A DNA stretch of 64,000 nucleotides from an uncultured Methanomassiliicoccus sp. (GTDB taxonomy: Archaea; Thermoplasmatota; Thermoplasmata; Methanomassiliicoccales; Methanomassiliicoccaceae), in the NCBI GenBank assembly GCA_944319735.1, contig CALUEU010000002.1:124001-188000 (forward strand), written 5' to 3'. How positions within the stretch are numbered: position 1 is the first letter of the stretch; every line of letters starts with the position of its first letter. This document shows positions 13,560-55,954 of this stretch, piece by piece. A program made the position numbers and the translations under genes. The notes beneath the pieces were generated by a model. The model had not been told where the DNA came from. It ran no database searches and saw only the letters and a program-made list of their open reading frames with translations.

Positions 13560-14154
13560 ATCTTCACCTCTTTTTGTATTTGATTCATATTCACTTTCGA
13601 TCGTTTGTTAGACTTTTAATCATCCCTTTTTTGCTCTCCATTTCATTTTTCATATCTTCTTCATTTTCACCTCCTTTAACCTTACAATTTCAATTTACTG
13701 CACATGTTAAGCAAGCAGAACATCACTCTGCGACTGCATATTTATAAATTCGAGAGGGGGGTCTGTGAAGTACCTCGGCTTGTTTTTAGAAGTATTTGTA
13801 ATTGAGATTTAAGATATCAGTATTGAAAAGAATAAAGAAAAAAATCATCAAAAATTTACAGTAAACTAGGTGAAAGTACCTGACAAGAACAAACAAGAAT
13901 TAACAGTGAAAATGAGTGAGATTACTGAAGAAATCAAGTCGGATAAATTGAGACTTTAATCATCGTAGACATAAGAGATTCTAGTAAAAATCAATCAGAT
14001 TTAGTTCAATTTTAATTAGTGTTAATATTGAATTATATCATCAATTAAAAATGCAATAGAATGAAATTATATCGTGAAAAATTACGAATAAATTTAAATA
14101 TCAAAAAACTTGGAATTTTAAAAAATATGAGTTTTCGTATTTTAATGAGTGATC

Positions 14155-14204
14155 GTTTTCGTTATACTCACGCGCGCCCGTGAGCGCGCAATAATCCCTG
14201 CCCG
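14155..14204. repeat. 50-bp direct repeat, copy 1
   Basis: Perfect match over 50 bp to 14648-14697. The core contains CTCACG...CGTGAG and, overlapping it, GCGCGC...GCGCGC, so two mutually exclusive hairpins can form. It is very GC-rich compared with the flanking sequence. Confidence 0.9.
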
Positions 14205-14647
14205 TCATTTTTTCCAAGTTTGCTTCATTTCCACTGGAACTGTTTTTTTGAAGATTTTTCGATTTTTTGATCAATTTTTCACTACGCTCTTTTTGAGTTT
14301 TAGTCTAAAATGCGCTTACGTTGCAATGCTCAACATTTTAAGAATGTTTGAAGTAATTGCCTCTTCTAACTTCGTGCAAATACGTAAGTTATCGAAAATG
14401 AAAAAGAAGCAGAGCTAAGTGTGCTTACGCTTTGCATAATAGTTTTCGATTCAATTTTTCTACACTTCTAAAACGGCATTTTCTTTGCAATTTTTCTTGT
14501 TAAAAAACGACTGCAGAAATGCCTATTTTATCAAACAATCAAAATGTAAAAATGTGAAATTATATCCTGCAAAATTACAGACAAGCTTAAATAATTAAAA
14601 ATGTAGCTCTCAGATATATCTTCGTATACAGATATATCTACATGGGT

Positions 14648-14697
14648 GTTTTCGTTATACTCACGCGCGCCCGTGAGCGCGCAATAATCCCTGCCCG
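14648..14697. repeat. 50-bp direct repeat, copy 2
   Basis: Second perfect copy, 493 bp after the first, with the same overlapping hairpins. The flanks of the two copies are similar but diverged, so the 50-bp core is conserved more strongly than its surroundings. Confidence 0.9.
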
Positions 14698-15561
14698 CGA
14701 TTTTTGCGACATGCCTGAAAATTTACTCGAATGTCTTTTTGAAAAATTTCGATGATTTTTTGATGAATTTTTCATTATGCCCTTCTTGAATTTTGAGCTA
14801 AAATATGACACCACTTTGCAACACTATAAACGCCCCTAAATTACCGTCTAAATGTCTCTTCGATTTCCCGTGCGCACGTAAGCTCTTAACAACGAAAAAA
14901 CAAGCAAATAAGCAGCAAAAATGACTAATCTAGATTGGCGATGCTTCAAAAGAGGTTAAAAAACAACCGCTGTAAGAGTCACGGCAAAATGGAATGAAGT
15001 GAAATTCATCGTAACTCACACTGCTGCCTGATGACTCTGCATTGTTTTCATAAGAACGCATAATTAGAAGTGTGCAGCCATCAGCAAGTTTGCTCAATCT
15101 TGGAGATACAAATAAGTTGTTCAGGAAAAGAGTGCGTGATACGTCTGAAAAAATCAGGTCTGGTGAAGTAAGCCAGAGGGCAGAATGAAGATAACTAGCA
15201 AACAATGTACAAATGTTGTTTGCATAGAGATACATTATGCTGTTACTTCATCACATGAAAGTTTCTTTTATTTTTTCCCCTATTAAAACTATCGAAAAGC
15301 CAGATTTTTATATTGAGTGATTCGAAAAAAATATTGAAATACTCTTGTTAGATACGGTAATCAAGAACGATTAAAATGAAAAGTCAAAATGAGGTGATTA
15401 AAAATGAAAATAACGTTAAACACACACGCAAAGTTGTAAAATAGATCATCTAGTCAAAAAAACTCTTAAAATATGCTGCAGAAACAGTATTGTAATTGAT
15501 ACAGAGCTGGTCAAAGTCTGCAAATAAGAACTTGATAAACATGAATTACAGGAGGTATTTT

Positions 15562-15936
15562 ATGAACTCTTTTAAAATTGGAGATACAGAATTTGGAATT
15601 GGTGATGTCAATCTTTCTATTAAGGATGGCTAGATAGATCTTGAGATCACCGCAGATGAAGATATTTTTGATGAATTAACAGAAAATGATGATTGTGAAT
15701 GGGACTGGGTTTTATATCCCCCTAAGATTTATTTTCGAAATGTACCTTACGATGGTAAGGACATAACAGTGGATGAAGAATTTCTTAAAGAGTATGATGT
15801 TGCACTTTATATGATGGAACATAATGACTTTACAGGAACATTAAAAATAACAGATAAAAACATCCACATCTGTGGACAGGTTAACATGATGGGAGAAATA
15901 TTGGCAGTTTCAATTGATGCTGAAAAACAGCTGTGA
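15562..15936 (+). CDS. Unknown small acidic protein interrupted by in-frame TAG (readthrough or pseudogene)
   Basis: A good Shine-Dalgarno (AGGAGGT, 15550-15556) precedes the ATG. Codon 24 is TAG (15631-15633). The frame then stays open for 100 further codons of protein-like sequence (DLEITADEDIFDELTEN, CEWDWVLYPPKIYFRNVPYDG) to a TGA. No later ATG, GTG or TTG could make a comparable product. If TAG is read as pyrrolysine or suppressed, the product is 124 aa; if not, this is a nonsense-mutated gene (for example Lys AAG or Trp TGG to TAG). The protein is not recognised. Its neighbour is a DUF4261 gene 67 nt downstream, so the pair may have been acquired together. Confidence 0.6.
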
Positions 15937-16003: not shown

Positions 16004-17059
16004 ATGAATTCAAATCAAATGAAAGCGGCACAGGAATCCATGATTGAGTGGCTCTCTCACCCGCAGGAACTAGGAAAGGCGCCTGTGAAAATAGAGTGTA
16101 CTGGGAATATTGAGCTGCATGGAATGACCTATTATCTTTTCAAATACAAGAAAAACTCACTCGGCAAGTGGCTGCTTGGAGTTTGTGGCGGCTATGAGGA
16201 GAATGAACTGGAAAACTGCGGTCATGTGTTCAGTGAAATGGAAGAATATGATGAAGCAACTGCGGCAGAACAGGCTACCGCTATGGTAGAGATGCTCCGC
16301 ACTTACTTGATGGAACAGGCAAAACAGTCAGAGGCGCAAAGGGAAAACGTTGGTCAGTTTGCAGGCTTTGTTCTCTTGTCTGACGTCAATTGGGATAAGG
16401 CACAGCTCATCCATGACCTGAAAGAGAAATGGGATATTACAGCAGAAGAGGATGAAGATCAAAGCGATGATGCGTTGGTTTTTTCCGTTGGTGATGTATT
16501 CGCTGCGATTAGTCTGATGCAGGCTCCTATCCCTGATGGCGAAGCCGAAGAAAATGCAAAAAACAACTACATGTGGCCAGAGGCCGTTGATGTGGCAAAG
16601 GCGCATAAGGCCCACCTCATAGTTGCCGTATTGGGTGAAGAGGAAGATTTGTTGGAGAAGGGCAAGCTCTACACTAAACTGGTAGCAGCTTGTTGCCGCC
16701 AGAAATATGCTACTGGTGTCTACACCAGCGGCGTGGTGTTCGAGCCCCGGTTTTACGAGGGCTTTGCGGATATGATGAAAAATGACGAGCTCCCGATCTT
16801 CAACTGGATTTGGTTTGGCTTTTATCGTCAGCCCGGCGGCATGTGCGGTTATACTTACGGCATGGAGGAGTTTGGAAAGGACGAGATGGAAGTGCTGGAC
16901 ACCGATGCAGACCCCAATGATCTGCGGGATTTCCTGGCTAGCCTTGCAACCTATGTACTAGAAAACAATGTAGAGCTTCACGACGGCGAAACAATCGGCT
17001 TTTCAGAAAATGATAAACATGCCATTACCAGAAGTGCCGGGATCTCCCTGCCGGAATGA
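16004..17059 (+). CDS. DUF4261 domain protein
   Basis: The 351-aa protein matches the DUF4261 pattern: an opening FAGFVLLSDVNWDKAQLI-like segment (here about residue 121), then VGDVFAAISLMQAPIPDGEAE, MWPEAVDVAKAHKAHLIVAVLG, and the C-terminal DLRDFLASLATYVLENNVELHDGETIGF (fewer than 20 residues of each are diagnostic). The family is common in gut Firmicutes, often near polymorphic-toxin or immunity-like genes, with no established activity. The base composition is clearly richer in GC than the preceding 2 kb. AGGTG lies 8 nt before the ATG. It was probably acquired from a bacterium; that is inference from family distribution and composition. Confidence 0.8.
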   Translation: MNSNQMKAAQESMIEWLSHPQELGKAPVKIECTGNIELHGMTYYLFKYKKNSLGKWLLGVCGGYEENELENCGHVFSEMEEYDEATAAEQATAMVEMLRTYLMEQAKQSEAQRENVGQFAGFVLLSDVNWDKAQLIHDLKEKWDITAEEDEDQSDDALVFSVGDVFAAISLMQAPIPDGEAEENAKNNYMWPEAVDVAKAHKAHLIVAVLGEEEDLLEKGKLYTKLVAACCRQKYATGVYTSGVVFEPRFYEGFADMMKNDELPIFNWIWFGFYRQPGGMCGYTYGMEEFGKDEMEVLDTDADPNDLRDFLASLATYVLENNVELHDGETIGFSENDKHAITRSAGISLPE

Positions 17060-54727: not shown

Positions 54728-55087
54728 ATATTGGCTCCAATGAGACACGAATCGTGGCCCATTTTCTTTTTGTGTATTATAACGTTTTGTACTAGTTTTC
54801 AAAATCTATACTGTTCAAAAGTAATTGTAAAATGCCTAAAAATAAAAATTATAAGATATGACATGTTCAATGTTCTAGAATCTGGAACACTAAAATTTTA
54901 CATCAGTTATTAATTAATATCAGATGTCGTATTGGTCGTGATCTAAATGAGCAAGATCACCTCGTACTGCAATGAAGATAATGAAGTTACAGAGAGAAAA
55001 TGGAATCCAGAAATTACATTCCACAACTACATATAGCATTTAAGAAACAGTGGGCTTTCTGAACCGGTTGTTCAGAAAAGAAAATGC
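54728..55087. other. Divergent intergenic region with inverted repeat
   Basis: The region contains the TATA-like element of lhr (TTATAATA, near 54780) and, just before the recombinase gene, the inverted repeat TCTGAAC-CGGTT-GTTCAGA at 55058-55076, possibly an operator or a recombination site. Nothing else is recognised. Confidence 0.5.
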
Positions 55088-55954
55088 ATGATTTCATGGA
55101 TATGCACAAAACTCGTTGAGAACAGTATGAGTCCTTCACCTCAGGAATGGGATGAGGAAACGGTCATCTACATCCGAGATACATTGTTGAAAGGCTCTCC
55201 GGCTAATGTATGCAAAGAATACTATTCTGCCATTTCAAAATATTCATTATTTAATAAAAACAAAATATTTGAATCAATGGCTGAATCTAAGCCTTCTGCG
55301 AAACCTGATGATAATGACAGACTCACAAACGAAGAAGTCTACAAAATACTGGATAAGGCAGAAGGTGTTGAACGTCTCATATTTCATATGGCAGTACAAC
55401 TGGACTTGCGTTATACAGAAATGCTCAATCTGCGTTTAAATGACATATATAATGATCATCTCTGCGTCCTTAGAAAAGACAGATATGGTGCAAGACTGAA
55501 GACAATAGTATTTCATCCAAATACCAAGAAGGAGCTGGAAATGTATGAGCATATCAGAAATGCCGAGATTGATTGGGCAATGCGGATTGACAAAGACGTT
55601 GAGGTTTCTGATTACTTATTCATTCATCAGGAAAGAGGAAAACTGCCAGTATACACAGTCCCAGCCGTACACTACATGATGAAAAAGCTATCAGAACGCA
55701 GTGGAACAAAGTTCACAATAAAAACACTAAGAAAAACCAACAAAAAGATTTCTCCTACAATTAAAGACAGATGGGATCTTGTACATGGTACACAGGAAGT
55801 CCTCGATACCTACAGCGAACCGGATATGATTGAGGAAAATATTTCCGCAGCGGTAAACGGCGATGAGTTCCTGTCTTCAGTATTGTCTTCATGGCATAAT
55901 ACCCCCAGAGGACAAGAATGGAGTGAGAAACAAAAAATGCAATCAAAAAGTTAA
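55088..55954 (+). CDS. Tyrosine recombinase-like protein
   Basis: The 288-aa protein resembles phage-type integrases. The first catalytic Arg is in LDLRYTEMLNLRLNDI, a lysine follows in the beta turn (RYGARLKTIVF), and the last box has the His and nucleophile Tyr in VHGTQEVLDTYSEPD. Box II reads TIKTLRKTNKK, so the usual H-x-x-R has Lys in place of His. It could be an active, diverged recombinase or a decaying one. An alternative start is ATG 55127. No attachment site was found, apart from the inverted repeat before it. The 3' end overlaps the TatD-like gene by 4 nt. Confidence 0.7.
   Translation: MISWICTKLVENSMSPSPQEWDEETVIYIRDTLLKGSPANVCKEYYSAISKYSLFNKNKIFESMAESKPSAKPDDNDRLTNEEVYKILDKAEGVERLIFHMAVQLDLRYTEMLNLRLNDIYNDHLCVLRKDRYGARLKTIVFHPNTKKELEMYEHIRNAEIDWAMRIDKDVEVSDYLFIHQERGKLPVYTVPAVHYMMKKLSERSGTKFTIKTLRKTNKKISPTIKDRWDLVHGTQEVLDTYSEPDMIEENISAAVNGDEFLSSVLSSWHNTPRGQEWSEKQKMQSKS

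Follow-up and report, generated by a model that had tools for sequence, protein, structure and literature searches.

An open reading frame of 124 codons in the genome of an uncultured Methanomassiliicoccus sp. carries TAG as its codon 24, and the question is whether this codon is a pyrrolysine (Pyl) site maintained by selection or an accidental lesion in an otherwise intact gene. The gene lies at 15562-15936 on the forward strand of the window, by which we mean the whole stretch of 64,000 nucleotides analysed. A Shine-Dalgarno motif (AGGAGG, 15550-15555, same strand) stands 6 nt 5′ of the ATG at 15562, and the frame runs through the TAG (15631-15633) and 100 further codons to a TGA at 15934-15936, with no other in-frame stop. 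This is the frame given in the preliminary description, which had also claimed that no alternative start could produce the part beyond the TAG. Indeed, the earliest in-frame ATG, GTG or TTG downstream of codon 24 lies at codon 70, too late for an ordinary restart to yield residues 25-69.

A hexamer model, for which 516 long genes of this genome served as the training set (mean 0.17, sd 0.03), scored the small gene at 0.19 nats per codon before the TAG and 0.21 after it, and the five remaining frames at 15562-15936 had negative coding scores. The coding signal is host-like on either side of the TAG and well above chance. Third-position GC content (GC3) of the gene is 0.27, low compared with the host (0.40, sd 0.08) and inside the range of the presumed donors (0.22-0.50); we considered composition as a clock for the time of transfer and found it uninformative. 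The roughly 2 kb of the window 5′ of the gene (13560-15560) hold no clear genes and are possibly remnants of transferred DNA.

A homologue scan over 84,980 bacterial and archaeal species, one genome each, returned 11 matching loci, each assigned to Lachnospiraceae from its record title or from the company it keeps. Eight of them are full-length and intact, the others being damaged at the 5′ end (L033), frameshifted (L034) or truncated (L035). Identity between the eight intact homologues and the window protein is 53-64% (E 2e-52 to 1e-43). Residues 1-123 of the latter align with the Lachnospiraceae proteins from the initial Met right to the end; the alignment is gap-free until the last residues, similarity begins with MN(S/T)F, and the start Met is common to all intact homologues and the window gene. 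AGGAGG likewise sits directly 5′ of the ATG in homologue L027. A family profile matched the window gene with E 1e-65 and "1 TAG" inside the match. On the strength of this homology the small gene is a real gene of a Lachnospiraceae small-protein family, and the earlier view that the 100 codons after the TAG are protein-like is borne out by the full-length match together with the coding score.

When 147 genomes of the archaeon's order were searched with the same profile, only the window matched and the 146 others did not; a Lachnospiraceae sample gave 6 copies in 397 genomes, and the family is therefore sparse within Lachnospiraceae too. Searches of the small protein against Pfam, PHROGs, NCBIfam and PDB sequences gave no useful matches, and the gene was not found among phages, plasmids or IMG/VR contigs.

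Every homologue that covers position 24 has a sense codon where the window gene has an in-frame stop. The residue is Leu in four, Val in three and Ile in one of the eight intact proteins (codons TTA, CTG, CTG, GTG, TTG, ATT, GTG and GTG), and Leu again in the 5′-damaged L033; neither TAG nor Lys occurs there in any homologue covering the site. Apart from the TAG, no further disabling lesion was found in the gene. Thirty-eight alignment columns are invariant in the eight bacterial proteins, and the window protein keeps 36 and changes 2 of them. The same test applied to each intact homologue in leave-one-out fashion gave 0-6 changes, a range that includes the 2 of the window, and relaxed constraint is not seen by this measure. 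Since the TAG alone is broken and only 2 of 38 invariant positions are changed, either the stop arose recently or production of the protein continues. Undiminished conservation past the TAG and the lack of a second lesion would also be compatible with a full-length protein that is still produced and used.

An AlphaFold model built with a nine-sequence alignment presents residues 1-124 as a single domain with two helices and many strands (mean pLDDT 93). Residue 24 opens a predicted strand (24-31) that follows a hairpin turn at 22-23. If side chains alternate along this strand, residues 25, 27 and 29 would make up its hydrophobic face, the better conserved one, and 24, 26 and 28 the opposite face, where there may be room for a bulky residue at 24. 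A fold search with the model gave no PDB match at E <= 0.001, and weak beta-barrel matches, none of which reached that threshold, were set aside. Our guess is that this is a small accessory protein working with the product of the adjacent DUF4261 gene.

That neighbour is intact, lies at 16004-17059 on the same strand, and matches along its length the neighbour of the homologue in a Lachnospiraceae genome (locus L030). There, 66 bases separate the homologue from the DUF4261 gene behind it, compared with 67 bases in the window; identity between the two loci is 56% for the small protein and 51% over the length of the DUF4261 protein. Because L030 carries the same two-gene unit as the window, the pair was most likely transferred as one unit. 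In the remaining Lachnospiraceae loci, some of them short, a DUF4261 neighbour was not seen in the available flanking DNA. Judging from the distribution of the family, transfer would have gone from bacterium to archaeon. The C-terminal two thirds of the window DUF4261 protein are also 60-64% identical to parts of long frames (1344-1904 aa) in two genomes from another family of the archaeon's order, which suggests repeated exchange of this domain.

The lineage had been suspected of using pyrrolysine, and the genome agrees. A single contig (locus L024, G000:C9:1-16000) carries pylT, pylS, pylB, pylC and pylD, then ramA, a corrinoid protein gene and mtmB; further mtmB and corrinoid protein genes, one of each, lie upstream on the opposite strand. 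All NCBIfam scores exceed their cut-offs (PylB 442 bits, PylS C-terminal domain 279, PylC 362, PylD 181), and the host pylS product has 275 aa, without the N-terminal domain. Neither ARAGORN nor Rfam called pylT as tRNA-Pyl; we identified it by eye at about 2465-2532 of L024, with anticodon CTA. Its D-loop of 3 bases, the single base separating acceptor and D-stem, the CAG variable loop and the C after the anticodon agree with what has been reported of 'Ca. M. intestinalis' and of one M. luminyensis tRNA (PMC3941956). Each of the two mtmB genes contains a single in-frame TAG and, with this codon read through, matches the MtmB profile (782 and 811 bits). The mtbB and mttB families, sought in the assembly as further positive controls, were not found, and for this reason methylamine use by the host is perhaps limited to monomethylamine. 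By gene content, the host has every part needed to decode TAG as pyrrolysine. Insertion of this residue needs no context signal and depends on competition with the release factor (reviewed in PMC8211752), so that UAG codons in general should be read through to some extent once tRNA-Pyl is charged.

How the host uses TAG elsewhere bears on the same question. TAG terminates 89 of 1631 predicted genes (~5.5%), and 71 of the 1279 with at least 150 aa, a share that resembles the 4-5% of Methanosarcina and falls inside the span set by two members of the order, 1.6% and 11.3% (PMC4153887). Another in-frame stop follows within 10 codons in 59% of TAG-ended, 55% of TGA-ended and 48% of TAA-ended genes; back-up stops past TAG are only slightly nearer than past the other two, and a strong sign of this kind is absent. 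A genome-wide screen for interrupting stops by coding score, which is blind to stops early in a gene and was taken as evidence for neither side, returned mostly adjacent genes sharing a frame. After inspection the convincing TAG cases were the two mtmB genes, the small gene and an integrase; there was one TGA case, confirmed by homology, and no TAA case. Outside the methyltransferases this leaves two TAG against one TGA and no TAA, which at such small numbers is no significant excess over the TAG share of 29-36% expected from codon composition.

The integrase-like gene (54947-55954, forward strand, PF00589 just above cut-off) is a second TAG-interrupted accessory gene within the same window. 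Its lone TAG is codon 30 (55034-55036), a position occupied by Gln, Ala and Ser in the three relatives that could be aligned. The TGA-interrupted gene lies outside the window, at C5:17773-18651 of the same genome (L165, G000), and is by homology a Lachnospiraceae-type DUF4261 gene. Like the small gene it is an accessory gene of that type in which a single stop interrupts a frame that is intact elsewhere; unlike it, the stop is a TGA, located exactly where all six intact homologues examined (43-60% identical) have Trp, and no means of reading TGA is known in the host. A TGA at an invariant Trp implies that borrowed genes pick up nonsense codons in this host, including of a kind that pyrrolysine cannot suppress.

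Taken together, the codon is very probably an accidental and recent nonsense substitution in a transferred gene that is otherwise intact, possibly suppressed in part by pyrrolysine, rather than a conserved Pyl site. The small gene and its DUF4261 neighbour would have entered a Pyl-decoding methanogen of the Methanomassiliicoccales from a Lachnospiraceae-type gut bacterium, and a codon 24 for a hydrophobic residue (Leu, Val or Ile, as in the homologues) would later have become TAG; from TTG a single substitution would suffice. We infer the direction of this change from bacterial homologues that are at most 64% identical. The majority of ribosomes probably terminate after 23 residues. With tRNA-Pyl charged, as during growth on methylamine, some would be expected to insert pyrrolysine and complete the 124 residues, and such partial decoding may occur, since the pyl genes are present. 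The order of events, the degree of suppression and whether the product works are likewise what we infer from these data. If the codon is indeed a nonsense mutation, we lean towards a functionally silenced gene; that Pyl read-through suffices to keep some function is an outcome we take seriously while leaning the other way. Somewhat more doubtful is the broader proposition that the gene is still functional, its protein made with pyrrolysine at position 24, and that code expansion buffers acquired genes against amber mutations.

A selected role, in which pyrrolysine at 24 is itself functional or Pyl-dependent read-through ties the level of the protein to growth on methylamine, draws on the complete Pyl system of the host, on a TAG that is the sole lesion in a gene under unrelaxed constraint, and on the integrase as a second accessory gene of the window with a lone in-frame TAG. 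We nevertheless consider it very unlikely. The homologues place Leu, Val or Ile at a site that is not a conserved polar or catalytic one, and a borrowed gene of the same class has been broken by TGA elsewhere in the genome. Moreover, known functional pyrrolysines belong to the active sites of methylamine methyltransferases (PMC8211752), to which the small protein is unrelated. The same residues, with neither TAG nor Lys among them, and the same TGA-broken gene also leave unsupported the suggestion of the preliminary description that this could be a new class of TAG-containing protein, and favour the recent nonsense mutation that it had offered as the plain alternative. It had held that an ordinary residue in close relatives combined with a lack of pyl genes would tell against pyrrolysine; the ordinary residue is there, in bacteria rather than in close archaeal relatives, and the pyl genes are not lacking.

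An error of sequencing or assembly, the true codon being TTG, TGG, CAG or another one-base neighbour, is improbable. The assembly is a draft in 21 contigs and the call rests on a single base, but isolated substitution errors are uncommon in assemblies, this one is 99.55% complete with 0.75% contamination, and the remainder of the gene is clean. For two products by design, a functional 23-residue peptide and a separately re-initiated protein, no supporting point was found, and we give this hardly any credence: the homologues are single proteins spanning position 24, the confident one-domain model has residue 24 opening a strand inside it, and there is no in-frame start ahead of codon 70.

This probably accidental nonsense substitution is one more data point on how frequently Pyl-decoding archaea tolerate a TAG that arose by chance. 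The small gene, the TAG-bearing integrase and the TGA-broken gene of the same origin as the small gene offer a natural comparison within one genome. Should Pyl suppression protect genes, copies interrupted by TAG would be expected to remain free of further damage for longer than those interrupted by TGA or TAA.

Similar cases are known from the order. For 'Ca. M. alvus', Borrel et al. (2014, PMC4153887) predicted 16 Pyl proteins other than methyltransferases, against a single one for 'Ca. M. intestinalis' and none for M. luminyensis. TAG-free homologues of half of these 16 occur in the latter two species, and the authors proposed that amber mutations stabilise in a Pyl-suppressing cell. Our gene resembles those cases: its product is not a methyltransferase, a lone TAG interrupts the frame, the host belongs to the order and decodes Pyl, similarity extends to either side of the TAG, and homologues elsewhere are TAG-free. 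It differs from them in being missing from the rest of the order, shared with Lachnospiraceae and paired with a DUF4261 gene, and its host ends 5.5% of genes with TAG, compared with 1.6% in 'Ca. M. alvus' (PMC4153887). The two host copies of MtmB (PF05369) resemble it in having an in-frame TAG whose read-through is expected in the same cell; their TAG, however, encodes a conserved active-site pyrrolysine, whereas the site in the small gene is hydrophobic in homologues, and the sequences are unrelated. In Methanosarcina, a Pyl-containing tRNA-His guanylyltransferase is reported to have arisen by neutral evolution (Heinemann, 2009, cited in PMC4153887). There too, a TAG reportedly appeared at a site that is not essential and was tolerated by inserting pyrrolysine; read-through was reportedly the subject of experiments in that case, whereas our gene is known from sequence alone. 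Later work argues that in some archaea TAG serves as a sense codon throughout. With little that is novel in kind, the small gene fits the known picture of accidental TAG codons, the twist being that this one arose in a transferred bacterial gene pair.
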